This document shows positions 24,227-36,723 of a stretch of DNA of 38,065 nucleotides, piece after piece. The notes under the pieces are model-generated. The model worked only from the letters and a program-made list of their open reading frames with translations, had not been told where the DNA came from and made no database searches. This DNA is from an uncultured Microcaldota archaeon (GTDB lineage Archaea > Micrarchaeota > Micrarchaeia > Anstonellales > Bilamarchaeaceae): contig CAIKOA010000009.1 in assembly GCA_903828955.1 (NCBI GenBank), positions 1 through 38,065 of the forward strand, written 5' to 3'. Position numbers and translations under genes: made by a program. The first letter of the stretch is position 1. Every line of letters begins with the position of its first letter.

Positions 24227-25969
24227 ATGATTTTCAGGAGCCCCTTTCTTTTTAGCATTGCATTTCTTTTAGCCCTTTCTTCTCTCTCGCATGCTTCCGA
24301 GCCAGATAAATTGAATATGTCTGCCAAGCTGCAGGATCCCGTCATTTATAAGGACGCGTCTTTCGAGTCCCTTCTCGTAATCGATAAATTCTCGGGCCCA
24401 GAAGCGTTCAATGCTACTGTTAAATTATGTTCCCAGAATTTCATTTCGTTCGAAGCTTCTGAGCCCGGAGGCCCTGGAAGCTTGGGCGCCACGTTCTCCT
24501 ATGCAAGAGAAAACGACAATGGCATCTTTGATTGCATCATCATCAAGATAAATGCGGACGGCTGGGAAAACGGGGAACGGTATAGCGCCGCATTAAATGG
24601 AAAATTTGCAGATGATGATACGTTTATCTCCAAAATATCCCAAGTATGGGGTCCGGATTACTCAAACTATCTGGCTGCAGAGGATTACTCGCTGGGCATT
24701 AGCCAGGGCATTAAATCCGTATCAAAAACCGAAGGAAAGTTCTACCTGGCCCACAAGCCAGATACCCTGAATGGAAAAAAGGCGGTCGTGGTCTTTCCAT
24801 CAACGTGGTCCTGCCTAAAAGCGCACCAAAAACCGGGCTGCGACCTGATGGTGCACGCCTATGAGCTATCAAAGGCGCTTTATTTTGAAGGTTATGACGT
24901 CACGATGATGGACCTCGAGAATGTCTCAAACTGGGGGGATAGCAAGACAGGGAACATCACAGAGGCGTCCGGTTTCTTCCATAAAAAAATCTGGGAGAAC
25001 ATCTCTGAAAACGACGTCACCAAAGGAACCTATGTCGTGCTCCTCGGGTCAGAAGACATAGTCCCCCCTTGCGTATACGAAGACGATCTTGAAGGGGGAG
25101 AGGCTCTTTCGGACTATTGCTACGCTAGCCGCACCGGAGCGGGCCGGCCAGAAGCGGCGGTGAGCCGGATGATGCCGCTATATGACAACTGGGCCAACGT
25201 GTACGAGACTGGGGAGTACCACATACATAGGAACATGTCCGCGCCGTGTTTTGGCAAATCAGACTGTTTTCTTTCTGTCAGAATGAAAGACGTAAGCAAA
25301 GAGAATGTTTTTGCCGATTTTGATGGCAGCGAATATGTCCCCCCGCTGGATTCCCTGCCATTCCTGAGTTCGCTATTCAACAAGACGGAGTTCTTTTCAG
25401 CCTGCAAAAACATCTCCGTATTAGACGGAAAAGTGTCCTCTGTCCATAGCCCAATCCAGTTCTATTTCCTGCATTCTTCCCCGGAAAACACCAGGTGGTC
25501 AGATTCCGAAGGCAACCTGGTAATCTCTAATGGTTTCAGGACATATGCAAACCCGATAATATTCTCCTCCGCATGCTACGGTGGCGTCATGAGCGACCGT
25601 AACTCAATACCCTGGGGGGCAATGGGCGGCGCGCAATTCCCAGGGGCGTTCATAGGCGCGAAGTCCGTTTCTTATTTTGGAGGGGTGCCCGGACTCCCTG
25701 TGGGAAGTGATCTGTTGAGCCAAAAGTTCTATGAAAATCTGCGTAAAGGGGAAACTGCTGGCGAAGCCCTATTGCATGCAAAGCAGTGGCTCTATGATTA
25801 CGATTACAAAAAGCAGTCCCTTTCAAACGAAATCGTCGGGGTTTTTGATTATGCCTTCTTAGGGGACCGTGTGAGCAAGATGAACAAAAAAACAGTGTTT
25901 ATATTTGACATGTATGGAGACCCGACATTGTCGGCATGGGAAATATGTGGTGATTATGATGGACAATAA
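24227..25969 (+). CDS. Secreted C25 (gingipain-like) cysteine peptidase
   Basis: A signal peptide spans residues 1-23 (FRSPFLFSIAFLLALSSLSHAS). A beta-rich prodomain-like part follows to about 165. The caspase-like fold then shows KKAVVVFPSTW (184-194), VVLLGSEDIVPP (270-281), SRMMPL (313-318), YFLHSS with the candidate catalytic His416, NPIIFSSACYGG with candidate Cys450, GAFIGAKSVSYFGG, and GDPTLS at 564-569, the C25 hallmark. Gingipain-type peptidases cleave after Arg or Lys; specificity here is unknown. There is no C-terminal membrane anchor or sorting domain. The downstream gene overlaps its stop, implying one operon. Such a large secreted peptidase is notable in a small-genome archaeon. 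Confidence 0.75.
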   Translation: MIFRSPFLFSIAFLLALSSLSHASEPDKLNMSAKLQDPVIYKDASFESLLVIDKFSGPEAFNATVKLCSQNFISFEASEPGGPGSLGATFSYARENDNGIFDCIIIKINADGWENGERYSAALNGKFADDDTFISKISQVWGPDYSNYLAAEDYSLGISQGIKSVSKTEGKFYLAHKPDTLNGKKAVVVFPSTWSCLKAHQKPGCDLMVHAYELSKALYFEGYDVTMMDLENVSNWGDSKTGNITEASGFFHKKIWENISENDVTKGTYVVLLGSEDIVPPCVYEDDLEGGEALSDYCYASRTGAGRPEAAVSRMMPLYDNWANVYETGEYHIHRNMSAPCFGKSDCFLSVRMKDVSKENVFADFDGSEYVPPLDSLPFLSSLFNKTEFFSACKNISVLDGKVSSVHSPIQFYFLHSSPENTRWSDSEGNLVISNGFRTYANPIIFSSACYGGVMSDRNSIPWGAMGGAQFPGAFIGAKSVSYFGGVPGLPVGSDLLSQKFYENLRKGETAGEALLHAKQWLYDYDYKKQSLSNEIVGVFDYAFLGDRVSKMNKKTVFIFDMYGDPTLSAWEICGDYDGQ

Positions 25970-29439: not shown

Positions 29440-30099
29440 TTATTCCCTAACCGTTTTCCTTGCCCCGGCAATAGGGGAAACCGGATGAGCCGAGGGGAAT
29501 GCCTTCGGGTTCCCGCTCTGCCTTTTTATAAACGGCGACTCAATATTTGGCCTCCAGCTCCTGCGCGCGAATGTGTTCTCAACGCTCCTCTTAATGCGTG
29601 GGTCATCCTTTTCATTAAAAACAACAGAAGTCAGCAGCCTCTCAATGTTCTCCAGGGTATCCTTGCCAACGTCCCCTTCCCTGAACCTGCTCAACAGCTC
29701 TATCGCGGCATTCCGCGCCGCTCCTCCAATTAATGGCTCCGCGGCAATCTTGGAAAGTACGATCCCATTAGAATCATTCGCAACATGGAGGCATCTACTT
29801 ATCGTTTTCGCAGAAATCGCGGGATCAGCCTGGCTAAGCACCAAAACAAGGCCATCTGAAATCTTTGAAGCAACGGCCCCCACCGCCCCTTTCAAGAGGA
29901 GGCCTGCAAGCGCTTCGCAGGCTTCTTCCCTGGAATAGTTTCCGCCAACAAGAGTGTCTATGCCAGCAATTACCGCCTCTTCATTGCTGCTGCCAAGCTG
30001 CCTAAGAAGATTAGCGGGAATTCCGCCGTTTGAAGAAGCGCATCTATACCCCTCTCTGGGAACATCGCCTCCCGTAAGACTATATTTGCCAGAACTCAT
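29440..30099 (-). CDS. Predicted helical-repeat protein, cluster member 1
   Basis: No named family recognised. The body (about 25-170) is an array of amphipathic helices (LRQLGSSNEEAVIAGIDTLVGG, ALAGLLLKGAVGAVASKISDGLVLVL, AARNAAIELLSRFREGDVG) with the spacing of HEAT/ARM-like repeats. The C-terminal 45 residues are Pro/Arg/Ser-rich and probably disordered. Soluble; no signal peptide. A TATA box at 30141-30148 and GGTG before ATG 30099 mark an independent gene. It is the most downstream of five similar genes. Confidence 0.6.
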   Translation of the reverse strand: MSSGKYSLTGGDVPREGYRCASSNGGIPANLLRQLGSSNEEAVIAGIDTLVGGNYSREEACEALAGLLLKGAVGAVASKISDGLVLVLSQADPAISAKTISRCLHVANDSNGIVLSKIAAEPLIGGAARNAAIELLSRFREGDVGKDTLENIERLLTSVVFNEKDDPRIKRSVENTFARRSWRPNIESPFIKRQSGNPKAFPSAHPVSPIAGARKTVRE

Positions 30100-30140
30100 T
30101 TCCCCACACCAAACTCTATAGGTTTATTTGCACTAAAAAT

Positions 30141-30148
30141 ATTTATAC
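30141..30148 (-). promoter_or_regulatory. TATA box of cluster member 1
   Basis: GTATAAAT on the - strand, directly after the stop of cluster member 2, about 45 bases before ATG 30099. Confidence 0.5.
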
Positions 30149-31147
30149 TTATCGAGTCTTGAGCGGAGCCATCGGAGTCGGGTCCTTGCTCTCGAGCGGC
30201 TTTCTTCCATTCCCAGGCGCGATCGCTATCGGAGGCTTGCTCGAGTTCCAGTCAGGAAGCACATTCTGCATCGCCTTAAGGACTATCCGGTGCAAGACCG
30301 GGAATTCAGACTTAAGCGGAAGTACTCCATCCCTGACCCTCTCAATCTGTTTCCTATCCTTTGAGTTCTCAACAATCTTAATCAGCGCCATGGCAGCCCT
30401 TTCTTTCTCAAAAAGGCCCCCATCCTTCAATTGCATAAGGAATCCGGCAACAATGTCCATCCCTTCAGTTGGAATGTCCCTCGCCTTTATAACCGCGGCA
30501 GAATCCTTCCCCGGACCGGGCTCGGCCTCAATCGCAACCGTTTCGTCCCCTCTGCGTTCCTCAACATATATGTGGGGCCTGCCCTTCCCTTCCTTTCCGA
30601 ACCTCTCCTTTATCGCCTTCTTTACCTCTTCGCTTTCATTCGGGTGCATGAGCCTCTGCAAAAGCGCCATCTCGATGGTATCAATTGTCCCCGGCCTCAA
30701 TTCAACTCCGCGGAAGCCCGCGAGCATCTCAACCGCGAGTCTCCTAAGCTCGGCCTTGTATTCAAGACGGTCAAGCATCTTTACAAAAAATTTCGCGTTT
30801 GCCTCGGTTCTCCTTCCCAGCCTGTTTGTAAGTATCATCTGTGCATCCTCAAAATGAACCCCGTTCCTGAGTTTTTCCACGAGCGCATCCCCCGCCTTTT
30901 CCATAACCTCGTCGCTATGGGGGAACTGGAGGACCTCTGCAAGCTTGTCAACTACTTCGCTCGGGCGGTATTTGCGGCCCATTTGCTCTCCGCGCATTAT
31001 GTCTCCTATGCCCATGAGCACTTTTTCATTCTGCTCGCTGGAAAGCCGTTCAGCAATGATTCTGGAGATCTCTGCGAATTCAGGTACTGGCTGGCGCCCG
31101 CTCTTGTCTCCGTGGCCGTTACCAGGCTTATTTCCAAACAAACCCAT
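30149..31147 (-). CDS. Predicted HEAT-like helical-repeat protein, cluster member 2
   Basis: No named family recognised. The N-terminus MGLFGNKPGNGHGDKSGRQP is polar and likely flexible. Two helical-repeat blocks occur at about 23-180 (ISRIIAERLSSEQNEKVLMGIGDIMRG, LAEVLQFPHSDEVMEKAGDALVEKL, LRRLAVEMLAGFRGVEL) and about 225-300. An acidic linker (RRGDETVAIEAEPGPGKDSAAV) separates them. The last 35 residues are Pro-rich and end MAPLKTR. A TATA box at 31171-31180 predicts a leaderless start. 332 residues. Probably a scaffold; partners unknown. Confidence 0.62.
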   Translation of the reverse strand: MGLFGNKPGNGHGDKSGRQPVPEFAEISRIIAERLSSEQNEKVLMGIGDIMRGEQMGRKYRPSEVVDKLAEVLQFPHSDEVMEKAGDALVEKLRNGVHFEDAQMILTNRLGRRTEANAKFFVKMLDRLEYKAELRRLAVEMLAGFRGVELRPGTIDTIEMALLQRLMHPNESEEVKKAIKERFGKEGKGRPHIYVEERRGDETVAIEAEPGPGKDSAAVIKARDIPTEGMDIVAGFLMQLKDGGLFEKERAAMALIKIVENSKDRKQIERVRDGVLPLKSEFPVLHRIVLKAMQNVLPDWNSSKPPIAIAPGNGRKPLESKDPTPMAPLKTR

Positions 31148-31170
31148 GGTATTATTTATGCACGAACCAG

Positions 31171-31180
31171 TATTTAAATG
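31171..31180 (-). promoter_or_regulatory. TATA box of cluster member 2
   Basis: CATTTAAATA on the - strand, about 27 bases before ATG 31147. The same ten bases occur before cluster member 3 at 33111-33120. Confidence 0.6.
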
Positions 31181-31207
31181 TTTCTTTTAGTGGATTTGTG
31201 TGTATCC

Positions 31208-31723
31208 TTACTGTTTCCTCGCCACCTTGCCATATTTTGCATACGGCCTCGAGCTCGGGCTCTCCAATCTATAGAACACAACCTGGCTAATCCTCATCCC
31301 AGAGTGCAGCATTATCGGAAAGGGCGCATTGTTCACAATCTCGAAAACCTGGTGGTTGTCGCTCCCCGGCTGCACAACCGCGGAAGTAATGTGCACCGCA
31401 AGCCCCATCCTCGCATATCTGCTTCTCCCTTCCAATCTCCCCATTAACCCAGAAGAAAGCGTAATCTTCTCCACACTCACTCCCAGGCACATCTCGCCTG
31501 GGGCAAGCACGACCGAATCCGCCTTCACTTGCGAAGTCGCCGCATGAAAATCCACCTTGGAAAGGTCCACAACCTTCCCGAAGTACTTCTCTTTAAAGAA
31601 CCAGAATTTATTTCCAAGGCTCAAATCCACCGTAGCCTGGCCAAGCTGGTCCGGCTTGAAAGGTTTTATTTTCAATTCGCCGGTCTTCATCGCCTTCCTT
31701 ATGTCAACATCCGATAGAAGCAT
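31208..31723 (-). CDS. dcd: dCTP deaminase (dUTPase-fold)
   Basis: Converts dCTP to dUTP, or directly to dUMP in bifunctional archaeal members. N-terminal MLLSDVDIRKAMKTGELKIKPF and QATVDLSLGNKFWFF are typical. The active site region is GRLEGRSRYARMGLAVHITSAVVQPG followed by HQVFEIVN with the likely catalytic Glu. 171 residues, normal. A TATA box at 31748-31757 predicts a leaderless start. It interrupts the helical-repeat cluster but has its own promoter, so a functional link is not implied. Confidence 0.88.
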   Translation of the reverse strand: MLLSDVDIRKAMKTGELKIKPFKPDQLGQATVDLSLGNKFWFFKEKYFGKVVDLSKVDFHAATSQVKADSVVLAPGEMCLGVSVEKITLSSGLMGRLEGRSRYARMGLAVHITSAVVQPGSDNHQVFEIVNNAPFPIMLHSGMRISQVVFYRLESPSSRPYAKYGKVARKQ

Positions 31724-31747
31724 GGGAAATACTAAAACGAGAAACTT

Positions 31748-31757
31748 TATTTATGTT
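31748..31757 (-). promoter_or_regulatory. TATA box of dcd
   Basis: CATAAATAAA on the - strand, about 27 bases before ATG 31723; it overlaps the last codon of cluster member 3. Confidence 0.5.
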
Positions 31758-33087
31758 AGGGCTTCTTTGCAGGAGGCAAAGTGGACAGCGCTCCGGCAAT
31801 CCTCCCCTCACTATCAGCCATTGGAGGCACACGCGGAGTCATTCTCCAGGAAGGCTGGCCAGCCATTTTTCCCCCATCAGTGGAAAAAGGCATCTTCTTC
31901 AGCATCGCCCTTATCCTTCTCAGGTGGTGGCCGAACTCCTCCCCGCGCCCTGAAAGGAGTTTCTCAATATGCATCAGTTCTTTCCTGTCCCTTGTGGCAA
32001 GGGCAATCAATGCAAGCGCATCTGCCGCATCCTTCCTCTCTTCCTTCTTGGGGTTCTTCAGCCCGTTCGCCAGCTCCCTCACATCGCTTTTCAATGGGCT
32101 CTCCGCGGCAAGCGCGGGCTGGCTTTCCCTGTTCTCTTGCGGAACATCCGCATCAATGGTAGCCCTCCCTTCAGCCTGAGGCGTCAGGGTGTCAAATACG
32201 CCCCGCCCGCTCTGGAACTTCGCAGGCTTTGCGAGCAATCTTTCCCCAATTTTTTCAAATGCGGCCTCTGCCGCGGAAACGAGCTTCGGGTCTTCTTCGC
32301 TCGCGGCAAGCCCCACCAATGCCTTCTCCGAAATTGTATGCCTTCCGTTTTGCCCGATCCACTGCACTATATTGAGCTTAATTCCGGGGTCCTTCTCCTG
32401 CGCAAGGTGTTCGCAGAGGATCCTTTCAACGCTATTTTCAGAGTCCTCGCTCCAGAGCGAAATAAGCCCCAGGAGCGCCTGGTTGCGCAGATTGGGGGAC
32501 TCGTTTCCAAGCGAGGCCTGGAATAGCTCTATCGCACTTTCGTTTCCAAAGCTTGCAAGTTCCCGCATCGCCTTAATCCTGAGCGCCTCGTCTTTAGTCG
32601 CCGCTCCCGCAACGTTCCAGATCACCTCGAATTTATCAGAAGCATTTGAAATCCGCAGAAGCTCGAGAAGTTCATGGGAGTCTTCCGCGCCCGAATTGCG
32701 TATAAGTGCGGCTTTGGTCTCAATTCCCAAACTCTGGCTCACGAGCGCAAACTTCTTCACTTCCAGCGGAAGCGCATTCGCATTATTTGAAAGCAGGAGC
32801 ATTATTCCCTCCGCATTTTTTTCCGAACCGGAAAGCACGCGGCTAAGCATATCCATTTTCTCCTTTCCCTGCGCCTTAGCGATTATTTGCGCAGCCGCAT
32901 TCCTTGCAGCAGCATTCACCGGCTCCTCCCGCCCTTCCTTTTCAAGCACTTCAAGAAGCTCCCTCAACGCAACAAGGGACGGGTAATTCACAATCTGGAG
33001 CATGCGTGCTATTGCAATCCCTTCATTTTCACTGTGGATTCCATCAAGTATCAATAAGGGAATCTGCGGCGCAGATGAATCGTCCAT
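31756..33087 (-). CDS. Predicted HEAT-like helical-repeat protein, cluster member 3
   Basis: The largest of the group, 443 residues. Residues 1-290 form repeated helix pairs (LVALRELLEVLEKEG, NAAARNAAAQIIAKA, LRIKAMRELASFGNESAIELFQASLGNESPNLRNQALLGLISLW, ALVGLAASEEDPKLVSAAEAAFEKIGERLL), the HEAT pattern. A disordered acidic linker follows (about 300-335), then another helical block (SDVRELANGLKNPKKEERKDAADALALIALATRDRKELMHIEKLL), and a Pro/Lys tail ending TLPPAKKP. No signal peptide. A TATA box at 33111-33120 predicts a leaderless start at 33087. Function unknown. Confidence 0.65.
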   Translation of the reverse strand: MDDSSAPQIPLLILDGIHSENEGIAIARMLQIVNYPSLVALRELLEVLEKEGREEPVNAAARNAAAQIIAKAQGKEKMDMLSRVLSGSEKNAEGIMLLLSNNANALPLEVKKFALVSQSLGIETKAALIRNSGAEDSHELLELLRISNASDKFEVIWNVAGAATKDEALRIKAMRELASFGNESAIELFQASLGNESPNLRNQALLGLISLWSEDSENSVERILCEHLAQEKDPGIKLNIVQWIGQNGRHTISEKALVGLAASEEDPKLVSAAEAAFEKIGERLLAKPAKFQSGRGVFDTLTPQAEGRATIDADVPQENRESQPALAAESPLKSDVRELANGLKNPKKEERKDAADALALIALATRDRKELMHIEKLLSGRGEEFGHHLRRIRAMLKKMPFSTDGGKMAGQPSWRMTPRVPPMADSEGRIAGALSTLPPAKKP

Positions 33088-33110
33088 CTATTTATTTATG
33101 TTGGCAATAC

Positions 33111-33120
33111 TATTTAAATG
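33111..33120 (-). promoter_or_regulatory. TATA box of cluster member 3
   Basis: CATTTAAATA on the - strand, about 27 bases before ATG 33087. The interval 33121-33189 contains no gene. Confidence 0.6.
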
Positions 33121-33189
33121 TTTTTAAAAATGGATTTTAATGTTTAAACTCGGGAGCACCCTCCAGCCCTCTTTTGCGCTATTTAATTT

Positions 33190-33915
33190 CTACTTTTTCC
33201 CAGTGAACATCCTTGCAGTGGTATCCGGCCTCTCCACAGCAGCCCTTGGCGCAGCAAGCGGCGGCTTATTTAGCGCGCTTGGAATCCCCTTCGCATCATC
33301 GTCCGGGCACCGCAATCTCCCAAGATGCATCTTCACAAGAAGAAGCGCGGGGGAAATCCCGCCATTCCTTTCTGCGCAGACCTGCATCGCCGCATGGATT
33401 CCCGAGACAGCCTCCAGATTATCCAGCCTGCCCGCAATCTTTGCAAGCGCCATTGAAAACGAGTACCTTGCCCAGTATGCCTCTTCATTAAGGCCGGTGT
33501 ACATGCCGAAGAGAACCCTCTCGTCCCCCCGTTCCGCAAACACCTGCGCAACCTTAACTCTTATGTCCACTTCTTTATTGTTAAGAAGTTCAATAAGGGG
33601 AGGGATAATGTCCCGCGGGTCCTTAAGCACATCCTCGAATTCGCGGGGCCCCATCATCAGCCTCGCAAGAAGCTCGTTCTTCACCCCGAATTCCCCATTC
33701 AGGACGTCCGCGGCAAATTCCGCCTTTTTAAAATAATTGTCGGCCCCGCGCAAATAAGTGAAAACAACGTGCAGGCGCCTCTCTTCCGCATTTGCGGGCG
33801 GCCTGCTTGGGCGCGGGGCAGCAGAGCCTTTCCCGCCCCCCTCTTCAACAAAATTCCTTACCTGGCCCGTAAAATCCTCAGAATCATTTTCTACATTTCC
33901 CCAGATGGAACCCAT
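33190..33915 (-). CDS. Predicted HEAT-like helical-repeat protein, cluster member 4
   Basis: ATG 33915 (MGSIWGNVENDSEDF) is chosen because the TATA box at 33940-33948 predicts a transcript start at about 33918; the frame is open to 33966, across that TATA box. A flexible N-terminus of about 45 residues precedes helix pairs (KKAEFAADVLNGEFGVKNELLARLM, IIPPLIELLNNKEVDIRVKVAQVFAERGDERVLFGMYTGL, YSFSMALAKIAGRLDNLEAVSGIHAAMQVCAER). The IxxLIELLNNKEVDIRVKVAQVFAE repeat is clearly HEAT-like. A Pro/Ala/Arg tail ends ARMFTGKK. Function unknown. Confidence 0.62.
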   Translation of the reverse strand: MGSIWGNVENDSEDFTGQVRNFVEEGGGKGSAAPRPSRPPANAEERRLHVVFTYLRGADNYFKKAEFAADVLNGEFGVKNELLARLMMGPREFEDVLKDPRDIIPPLIELLNNKEVDIRVKVAQVFAERGDERVLFGMYTGLNEEAYWARYSFSMALAKIAGRLDNLEAVSGIHAAMQVCAERNGGISPALLLVKMHLGRLRCPDDDAKGIPSALNKPPLAAPRAAVERPDTTARMFTGKK

Positions 33916-33939
33916 GAAAACCATATATGGAGATAAATG

Positions 33940-33948
33940 TTTATAAAT
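33940..33948 (-). promoter_or_regulatory. TATA box of cluster member 4
   Basis: ATTTATAAA on the - strand, about 27 bases before ATG 33915. It sets the start and argues against the ATG-like codons at 33924 and 33966. Confidence 0.55.
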
Positions 33949-33979
33949 GGATTTCAACGCGGGCAATCCGGAGCCCGCT

Positions 33980-34735
33980 TTAGAGCCTGATTCTCAGCGG
34001 GCGCGCGTTCCCGATTTCCCCGAGAATTTCATTTCTCCCTTTGCTTCTTTCACGCGCCCCCCTGCGGCCGCGGAATCTCTTCTGTCCCTTTTTTTCCTGG
34101 CTTTCCCCCATGGCGTCTTGCAGCATTTCCGCCCAAGCCCTTGAGGTGCGCCTCAGCTCTCCGGCGCATTTCTCCAGATCTACTCTTGAAGTGCCCACGT
34201 CCTTTTGAAGACTCAGGCGGGAGATGCCATTCTGGAGCAGCCGGAGGTCGTTTTCATTGCGGGGCACCATCCTTTCAAGCCCCCGGCTCGCAGTCCTCAC
34301 AACCCCTGAGTAGTGGTCGCCCAGCGCATAGCAGAGGGTCGGGATAGTGCCCGGCTCGCAAATCTGGCCGAGCGCCCATGCGATGCTTTCCCTTGCCCAG
34401 GGGTGGGGCTCGCGCATAAACAGGGCCTTGAGGGGGCCTGCCGCGCATGCGTTTCCGATTTTCCCAAGCGCAGCCGCCGCCTTTGCCCTCACAAACCAGT
34501 CGCCGTCGCCCAGCTTCTTCAGGAGCAATGGGATTGCCTCGGCATGCCTCATGCGGCCGAACACCTCCGCAGCGCCCGCGCGGGCAAACGGGTTTTCGTC
34601 ATCAAGGAGAGGGAGGATGTGGGGGGCTACTTCCGCGCCAAGGGCAGAAAGCGAGACCACTCCCCTGTTCCATGAAGTGTCATCACCTGCATAGAAAAGC
34701 GAAATGCGTTCCCTTACCTTGTCCTCATCAAGCAT
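33980..34735 (-). CDS. HEAT-repeat protein, cluster member 5
   Basis: The clearest HEAT protein of the group. Four repeats are visible at about residues 25-165: VAPHILPLLDDENPFARAGAAEVFGRM, AIPLLLKKLGDGDWFVRAKAAAALGKI, AAGPLKALFMREPHPWARESIAWALGQI and TIPTLCYALGDHYSGVVRTASRGLERM, of the short E-Z/PBS-lyase type. The last 60 residues are very basic (KKGQKRFRGRRGARERSKGRNE) and could bind nucleic acid. ATG 34735 (MLDEDKV) has GGTG six bases upstream; a GTG at 34744 is less likely. Upstream AT-rich sequence (34770-34800) contains TATA candidates. Confidence 0.72.
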   Translation of the reverse strand: MLDEDKVRERISLFYAGDDTSWNRGVVSLSALGAEVAPHILPLLDDENPFARAGAAEVFGRMRHAEAIPLLLKKLGDGDWFVRAKAAAALGKIGNACAAGPLKALFMREPHPWARESIAWALGQICEPGTIPTLCYALGDHYSGVVRTASRGLERMVPRNENDLRLLQNGISRLSLQKDVGTSRVDLEKCAGELRRTSRAWAEMLQDAMGESQEKKGQKRFRGRRGARERSKGRNEILGEIGNARPLRIRL

Positions 34736-35276: not shown

Positions 35277-35951
35277 TTATGCTCCCGCGCCCGCAATCGC
35301 GCCTGCTGCGCCCACTCCGAGCGCAATCAGGATGATCCCGGCGATTATTGCAAGAATCATCGTGATTACTATTGCAGTCACGAACATCACGACTACGGTC
35401 ACGATTCCGCCCAGCATCTCAACCTTCTGCACAGCCCTTACAGCCACGTACATAAGGTAGAGCGACCAGAGGAAGAGCAGGATTGCAATGATCCCGTTCA
35501 GCATCCCAAGGAAAGGCAGGAGCCCGAAGACCAGGTTGAGCACCGCGGTGATAATCGTTATCGCGCCGGTGAAGAGCATCACAACATAGAATTGCTGCGG
35601 GAAGTTGCCCGTTCCCTTGAAGCCTGCCTTGGCCACAAAGCTACCAACCCACTGGATAACGTAGTTGGAGATGAGCGCCCAGATAAGCGTAAGGATTGAG
35701 CCGACCACGACCGCCACAATCATGAGCCCCCCGATAATGTTACCGCCAAAGAGTTTCATGAGCGGAGCAAGCGCCGCTGCGCTTGTTCCTATTGCAAGCC
35801 CAGCGCCAATGAGGGCAAGGAGGAAACTTACTACCCATGCGAACAGGATTACCATAATCGCGTCCTTCACGGTCCCCTTTTCCTTCTTGGCGAATTCTTC
35901 CACTTTACCAGGCAGAAGCGCCTGGAACATTTTTGCATATATCTCGAACAT
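35277..35951 (-). CDS. Yip1-like polytopic membrane protein (copy A)
   Basis: About 224 residues with roughly five membrane segments after a 35-residue amphipathic N-terminus (MFEIYAKMFQALLPGKVEEFAKKEKGTVKDA). The loop FVAKAGFKGTGNFPQQFYVVMLFTGAITII and the pattern of Gly-rich helices resemble Yip1-domain proteins. It shares about half its residues with the next gene. Start 35951 (MFEIYAKM) has GGTG six bases upstream. The C-terminus is a Gly/Ala membrane segment. Role unknown; archaeal Yip1 proteins are often clustered and may shape or organise membranes. Confidence 0.7.
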   Translation of the reverse strand: MFEIYAKMFQALLPGKVEEFAKKEKGTVKDAIMVILFAWVVSFLLALIGAGLAIGTSAAALAPLMKLFGGNIIGGLMIVAVVVGSILTLIWALISNYVIQWVGSFVAKAGFKGTGNFPQQFYVVMLFTGAITIITAVLNLVFGLLPFLGMLNGIIAILLFLWSLYLMYVAVRAVQKVEMLGGIVTVVVMFVTAIVITMILAIIAGIILIALGVGAAGAIAGAGA

Positions 35952-35988
35952 GCCATACACCTCTCTCATAAGCTATTTATTTTTATCG

Positions 35989-36013
35989 AAAAACCAAAAA
36001 ACACAAAAAAGGG
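35989..36013 (-). terminator. Oligo-T terminator after the second Yip1-like gene
   Basis: The - strand has three T-runs (TTTTTT, TTTTTT, TTTTT) directly after the stop at 36015, separated by GTG and GG. No hairpin. Confidence 0.55.
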
Positions 36014-36014
36014 C

Positions 36015-36683
36015 TCATAACCCCGCTACGGCGGATTCCGCCCCCGTGATTCCGAGCGCCCCTGCCAATATCCCCCCAATCACGACCGCAGCCATTGCAA
36101 CTGCCAATGCCAGCAAAAGCATTGCCACCATCGTAATAACCGCGCCCGCAGTTTCGACCTTTTGCACCGCCTTAATCGTAATATAAGTAAGGTAGAGCGA
36201 GTATAGGAAGAACAGCATGCTAACGATGCCCCCAATCGTCCCAAGGAAGGGCACAAGCCCGAGGGCGAACACTAGCAGCGAAGTAATTATCGTAATTGCG
36301 CCCCCAAAGAGCATCGCAATGTAGAATTGCTGAGGGAAGTTGCCCGTTCCCTTGAAGAAGCTCTTTGCAACCCAGCTTCCTGCAAAGTGGATGATATATC
36401 CTGTAACTATGGAAATCACCAGGCCGAGCACCTGAGTTATCAACAGCGCCAATATCATTATCCCTCCCACTACCGTTCCCCCGAAAATAGCGGCTGCCGG
36501 CTGGACTTCGGTGCCTGCGTTCCCCACTGCCAAAAAGATTCCTATGATTGCGAGTATCAACCCGACTATCCAGGAAAGAAAGATTGCCGTTATCCCTTTC
36601 TTCACGGTTCCCTTCTCTTTCTTTGCCATCTCCTCAATGTTCCCCGGCATCACTGCCTGGAACATTTTTGCATACAGTTCCAT
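36015..36683 (-). CDS. Yip1-like polytopic membrane protein (copy B)
   Basis: Paralogue of the gene at 35277: the motifs YAKMFQAVMPGNIEEMAKKEKGTVKK, FKGTGNFPQQFYIAMLFGGAITII, LVPFLGTIGGI, and YLTYITIKAVQKVE match nearly position for position. About 222 residues and five membrane segments. ATG 36683 or 36686, with GGGTGAGA upstream and a TATA-like AGTTAATAAC at 36724-36733. Each copy has its own terminator, so they are separate units produced by tandem duplication. Confidence 0.7.
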   Translation of the reverse strand: MELYAKMFQAVMPGNIEEMAKKEKGTVKKGITAIFLSWIVGLILAIIGIFLAVGNAGTEVQPAAAIFGGTVVGGIMILALLITQVLGLVISIVTGYIIHFAGSWVAKSFFKGTGNFPQQFYIAMLFGGAITIITSLLVFALGLVPFLGTIGGIVSMLFFLYSLYLTYITIKAVQKVETAGAVITMVAMLLLALAVAMAAVVIGGILAGALGITGAESAVAGL

Positions 36684-36723
36684 CATTGATCTCACCCACT
36701 TAGGCGCCCTTTCGGAGAAAAGG

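Follow-up and report, generated by a model that had tools for sequence, protein, structure and literature searches.

A syntenic locus in one genus of Micrarchaeota encodes an alpha-solenoid family restricted to that genus

Introduction

The window analyzed here, i.e. the whole stretch of DNA under study, is a complete 38,065-base contig (C9) of a 1.22 Mb Micrarchaeota (DPANN) MAG that is 95.6% complete. It contains five genes, W1 to W5 (Table 1), whose closest described counterparts are the HEAT/ARM alpha-solenoids (PF13646, PF02985) such as alphaRep, MTH187 and YibA. Solenoid folds of this kind usually act as adaptors or scaffolds. W3, W4 and W5 share the paired-helix fold by sequence, and W2 resembles it by weak fold similarity. 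Unlike these families, W1 and W2 have no Pfam match, W2 to W4 carry a module of their own, the tails are disordered and basic, and the occurrence is confined to one genus.

Two further described systems touch on this locus. Class III nucleotidyl cyclases (PF00211) take part in Pycsar, and a cyclase gene of the window genome has the promoter type of W2, with a counterpart near the W genes in a relative. In contrast to Pycsar and similar defence systems, this cyclase has neither a PADLOC match nor a known paired effector, and HEAT proteins are not known to serve as Pycsar effectors. In the MoxR-vWA ternary conflict systems, HEAT repeats are reported to take the effector position of vWA proteins and to be fused to the vWA protein (Kaur et al. 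2020, PMC7159879). W1 to W4 are unrelated to these systems, whereas W5 resembles HEAT proteins from another species of the genus, whose genes stand beside those for a MoxR-type AAA+ ATPase and a VWA protein. In a large open-access library, where absence is no proof, we found no publication naming either Micrarchaeota or DPANN alongside HEAT repeats, and the word HEAT does not occur in the main text of a Micrarchaeota survey from 2025 (PMC12892359).

Results

Five minus-strand genes encode soluble proteins with basic tails

An earlier sequence-only reading of the window had described five minus-strand genes, interrupted only by dcd, for soluble HEAT-like proteins with disordered tails. The five open reading frames and their ATG starts were confirmed, and dcd is the sole interruption. 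For W4 the start at 33915 is also backed by aligned starts in relatives. Six species of the genus were compared, each by one genome, namely the window genome (G000) and G001 to G005; gene calls beyond the window came from a simple codon-usage script, and their start sites may be off. The maximum 19-residue hydropathy did not exceed 1.56 in any of the five window proteins, in agreement with their proposed solubility. Likewise, all five have basic tails (net charge +3 to +8), which are proline-rich in four of them.

The HEAT-like build was clear for W5 and W3, held for W4 through its family, and came down to weak ARM/HEAT matches for W2. The curated HEAT cut-off was passed by W3, W5 and the G001 orthologue of W4 but missed by W4 itself (0.018), W1 and W2, the last two having no match at all in the Pfam search. 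AF2 models were obtained for W2 and W4, each with four relatives, and predicted a tandem helix-pair solenoid for both. In the W4 model a disordered N-terminus is followed by an 11-helix HEAT core (aa 41-205, pLDDT 84-95) and a disordered tail. AlphaRep HEAT proteins headed its Foldseek matches, the best of them at E 7e-4. The W4 profile finds the HEAT structures alphaRep, YibA and MTH187 by sequence. Taken together, family profile, AF2 core and Foldseek leave the HEAT nature of W4 certain, even though W4 alone stays below threshold. For W2 a nine-helix solenoid (aa 22-190) was predicted, followed by a low-confidence disordered linker, a C-terminal four-helix module (aa 232-301 in the model) and a proline-rich basic tail; the ARM/HEAT solenoid matches in Foldseek were weak (best E 5e-3).

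Table 1. Coordinates of genes, predicted C-terminal modules and promoters at the W locus of the window
Feature	Position	Strand	Length	Description or evidence
W1	29440..30099	(-)	219 aa	fam2 HMM, E 2.6e-19
W2	30149..31147	(-)	332 aa	AF2 model; orthologues; no Pfam match
W2 C-terminal four-helix module, aa 230-302	30242..30460	(-)		Predicted to be common to W3 and W4
W2 promoter	31171..31203	(-)		ACAC box, 15 bases, BRE/TATA GAAACATTTAAATA; exact composite match
W3	31756..33087	(-)	443 aa	HEAT_2, 8e-9; W3-family solenoid with W2-type C-terminal module
W3 C-terminal four-helix module, aa 335-404	31876..32085	(-)		HMM/profile comparison
W3 promoter	33111..33143	(-)		One mismatch from ACAC-N15-RRAACATTTAAATA
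W4	33190..33915	(-)	241 aa	AF2, Foldseek; orthologues
W4 C-terminal module	33304..33525	(-)		Related to W2/W3 modules; hhalign 94.6%, E 6.6e-8
W4 promoter	33933..33949	(-)		CATTTATAAACATTTAT; kept in orthologues; differs from W2/W3 type
W5	33980..34735	(-)	251 aa	PF13646, 2e-21; canonical HEAT_2 protein, basic tail

W1 to W4 are related beyond generic HEAT similarity

The W2-family HMM finds W1, which covers the N-terminal solenoid of W2 alone and lacks the C-terminal module. W2 is the founder of this W1/W2 family, and W1 is a truncated paralogue of it. W3 is hit twice by the same HMM, at aa 4-115 and at aa 340-404 (2.8e-10). The segment in between (aa 155-286) matches the positional W3 orthologues, which themselves lack the C-terminal piece, and W3 therefore looks like a mosaic. 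When the HMM of the W2/W3 module was compared with W4 over the C-terminal approximately 70 residues, hhalign returned the high probability listed in Table 1, as opposed to only 35% with full-length profiles, all of these figures being single comparisons and not database E-values. Judged by these profiles, the C-terminal four-helix module, about 70 residues long, is common to W2, W3 and W4. The earlier proposal of an expanded lineage-specific family with a common architecture thus stands for W1 to W4, ancestry beyond generic HEAT being detected for W1, W2 and W3 and, through the C-terminal module, for W4. It does not extend to W5, for which no such ancestry was detected. The same reading had suggested that the members could assemble into one complex and that the very basic tail of W5 could bind nucleic acid.

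The locus is syntenic within the genus and its proteins diverge rapidly

Five of the six species have the order pth2-W4-W3-dcd-W2-porGDAB, either in full or partly, and the sixth lacks it. The cluster is indeed syntenic within the genus. G002 has pth2-W4-W3-dcd-(extra HEAT)-W2-porG and G001 has W4-W3-dcd-W2-porG. The order in G004 is W4-dcd-W2-porG without W3, and in G003 it is pth2-W4-W3 up to the contig end. None of W1 to W4 was found in G005, where other genes fill the few kilobases that separate porG from dcd. W1 is present at the locus in G000 only, and members are gained or lost from species to species. Orthologues of W2 were found in G001, G002 and G004 (27-32% identity) and those of W4, the best-conserved member, in G001 to G004 (36-50%). 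A search of 84 genomes of the order recovered the W2 family from four, each of them a member of this genus, and from none beyond it. A scan of 84,980 species for the W4 family returned four loci only, all of them in Micrarchaeota and corresponding to G001 to G004. W2, W3 and W4 form an alpha-solenoid family that is confined to this genus and encoded at a syntenic locus. Their identity across species is low (30%, 26% and 41%, respectively), compared to 73-78% for the neighbours dcd (78%), porG and NurA.

Other families of the order have a HEAT protein linked to dcd. Descent from it was considered and rejected; the orthologue of that protein in the window genome (C16:60278-61522) is unlinked to the W cluster. 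No Rfam element was detected at the locus.

W2 and W3 share a promoter type with a cyclase gene

The five genes had also been said to have near-identical promoters. This applies to W2 and W3, whose 60 upstream bases agree at 38 positions, compared to a background mean of 21 (SD 3). It does not apply to W1, W4 and W5, as all remaining pairs among W1 to W5 were at background level (17-27 of 60). Only 12 of 21,736 upstream pairs reach the level of W2/W3, and some of these are tandem paralogues. Throughout this genome the TATA box is TTTAWAWA (116 genes compared to about ten expected, with a peak near -30), and hence the TATA box alone is ordinary. Of 1,140 genes only four are preceded by CATTTAAATA; W2 and W3 are two of them, each with the element 33 bases ahead of its start. 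W1 has its own, different promoter.

Upstream of the BRE/TATA core an ACAC box occurs at a fixed spacing. Across the six genomes, exact matches to the composite of both elements, ACAC-N15-RRAACATTTAAATA, number seven. They are located before W2 in G000, G001, G002 and G004, before W3 in G001 and G003, and before the cyclase gene of the window genome described below (C21:7291-9609). Since the pattern was built from these promoters, it finds them by construction; the informative point is the lack of any other exact match. With up to two mismatches there were 17 matches, compared to one for the reversed control. Five of the weaker matches precede a conserved RNA-like sequence upstream of genes that we take to be rtcA-like from reading their sequence, and the core GAAACATTTAAATA alone is consequently not specific.

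Across species, the 60 upstream bases are on average 79% identical for W2, 72% for W3, 67% for W4 and 66% for dcd. The W2 and W3 promoters are thus better conserved than the proteins (79% versus 30% and 72% versus 26%), while the reverse is true for dcd (66% versus 78%).

The gene at C21:7291-9609 encodes a protein of 772 aa. It shares 58% identity with a protein of G002 in which a Guanylate_cyc domain was detected (4e-6). The cyclase similarity had first come to notice through the core promoter motif. The protein retains the conserved Asp, Asp and Asn-x3-Arg, which we take to be the class III cyclase positions. The cyclase promoter matches the composite exactly in G000 only and with two mismatches in G002. 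In G002 a HEAT gene (q), NurA, a Yip1-like gene and pth2 lie, in this order, between the cyclase gene and the W cluster, and in G003 a divergent cyclase-like gene occupies the same position. G003 and G004 encode such a divergent protein with a different promoter, and a cyclase of the G000/G002 kind was not found in G001 or G005. In the window genome the cyclase gene is on another contig than the W cluster, and the window reaches little further than NurA. No end overlap was found between the window and C27, the contig that carries the q-type HEAT gene. One exact promoter match and the neighbourhood in two relatives are suggestive of a link between the W genes and the cyclase.

Discussion

Our results describe a genuine lineage-specific module of a single genus. 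They support the view that lineage-specific alpha-solenoids with a common C-terminal module diversify fast under conserved expression signals. Promoters that are better conserved than their proteins invert the usual rule, which signals that expression is under selection while binding surfaces change. The locus offers a concrete set of genus-specific solenoids that occupy a syntenic site and have a docking-type module in common, two of them being tied to a nucleotidyl cyclase by a specific promoter.

We tentatively favour a reading in which W1 to W4 are cytoplasmic alpha-solenoid adaptors of this genus that are made together with the class III cyclase. Their function as adaptors or scaffolds would follow from the usual role of such folds. 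Through their four-helix module W2, W3 and W4 may dock onto a common partner or onto one another. Binding of fast-changing clients would fall to the variable N-terminal solenoids and the basic disordered tails. The ACAC-box promoters would yield cyclase and adaptors jointly as one signalling or assembly module. Several observations count against this. W1 and W4 use other promoters. The cyclase gene is on another contig in the window genome, its promoter match is exact in that genome only, the cyclase-like gene of G003 and G004 differs in its promoter, and no cyclase of this kind was found in either G001 or G005. Moreover, the GAAACATTTAAATA core also stands before the rtcA-linked element, and the composite was derived from the very promoters on which it was tested. 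That the locus amounts to an undescribed cyclic-nucleotide-linked adaptor system of DPANN archaea, in which a cyclase and interchangeable solenoids with one dedicated promoter type and a shared docking module serve changing partners, seems improbable to us.

It is less likely, but still to be taken seriously, that the W proteins are divergent HEAT/ARM proteins with unrelated roles, whose gene order was inherited vertically and whose shared promoter is merely a strong core promoter. HEAT proteins abound in the order, where 38 of 40 genomes encode them, the core genes surrounding the locus are likewise syntenic, and both the general TATA box and the occurrence of the GAAACATTTAAATA core before another conserved element fit this explanation. 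However, it leaves the shared module unexplained, as W1 to W4 have family-specific modules beyond generic HEAT. The upstream likeness of W2 and W3 clearly exceeds background, and the ACAC box at its fixed spacing has exact matches nowhere but in front of W2, W3 and the cyclase gene.

The gap in identity between the W proteins and dcd, porG and NurA, together with the gain or loss of members per species, could also reflect an arms race in host-archaeon contact or genetic conflict, with divergence, copy-number change and module shuffling as its traces. Most DPANN archaea are predicted or validated as host-dependent (PMC12892359). Nevertheless, we consider this explanation rather unlikely, since no transmembrane segment is evident and no export signal was seen in W1 to W5, and disordered tails diverge quickly without any conflict. 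No system-specific defence protein was matched in PADLOC-DB, where the hits of W3 and W5 were weak and to generic models that contain HEAT repeats, and no viral relative of W4 was found. A phospho-dependent signalling hub, in which FHA domains read threonine motifs of the disordered tails, is very improbable and largely refuted. An R-x-D-x-T pattern is kept in the W4 tails and D-x-T-V is often kept in the W2 linkers, but these tail motifs are no commoner than in shuffled tails genome-wide, and no FHA domain occurs in the six genomes of the genus.

W5, which had been counted as a family member, has no counterpart at the syntenic loci of the relatives, and its match is to a different HEAT system. 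An ordinary HEAT protein, it stands outside the W1-W4 family. Weak AAA matches to the MoxR of G005 are found in the window genome (1.5e-4) and none to the VWA protein of G005; the pair of MoxR ATPase and VWA protein is not in the window but is present in G005. There it is linked to an array of 12 HEAT genes, in contrast to the HEAT-vWA fusions described for the ternary systems (PMC7159879). An HMM of the C-terminal regions of this array finds W5 aa 131-231 (E 5e-12), a stretch that is partly generic HEAT. W5 would accordingly be a separate HEAT protein that landed beside W1 to W4.

Further genes and elements in the window and related genomes

In G005, a further species of the same genus, about 12 HEAT genes stand in tandem on contig C1 (L046:3162-19820), together with a MoxR-type AAA+ ATPase gene and a VWA protein gene. 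The starts and stops of the tandem HEAT genes overlap and a C-terminal W-x3-L...PPxRFR region is common to them; this MoxR/VWA/HEAT gene array is unusual. Among the family's other genera, the stretch after dcd (L152, L154, L155, L156, L158, L159, L161) encodes a membrane protein of approximately 210 aa and, convergently, a HEAT protein with a conserved non-HEAT C-terminal domain. The orthologue of this HEAT protein in the genome of the window (G000) lies at C16:60278-61522.

Additional features of the window, of G000 and of relatives (L, stretches of relatives' genomes)
Feature	Location	Remarks
Two Yip1-like membrane protein genes, side by side	window 35277-36686	PF04893, 1.8e-7 and 4e-6 (latter sub-threshold)
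Protein with peptidase C25 (gingipain-type) match at C-terminus	window 24317-25969	2e-10
Large class III nucleotidyl cyclase (Micrarchaeon)	G000:C21:7291-9609; L042:2054-4384	
Paralogous small proteins	G000:C30:114-1688; C35:44101-44550	signal-peptide-like starts
Lipoprotein-like ORF	G000:C20:3911-5371	contains a long low-complexity Asp-Ala-Asp-Gly repeat
Conserved RNA-like sequence	L174, L175, L176, L177, L183, ~position 1500-1610	5' of rtcA-like genes

The G000 cyclase promoter agrees exactly in the composite pattern with that of W2, a gene of the window for a predicted alpha-solenoid protein, and divergent relatives of the cyclase occur in G003 and G004 of the same genus and in genus g9. 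Promoters of the paralogous small-protein genes are near-identical to each other (41-48 of 60 bases). The RNA-like sequence, which reads TTGCGTATTTTGGGGAGGAA...TGGTCGCCTTGCCAGCCAGCGC and is possibly a non-coding RNA, lies under a GAAACATTTAAATA-type promoter.
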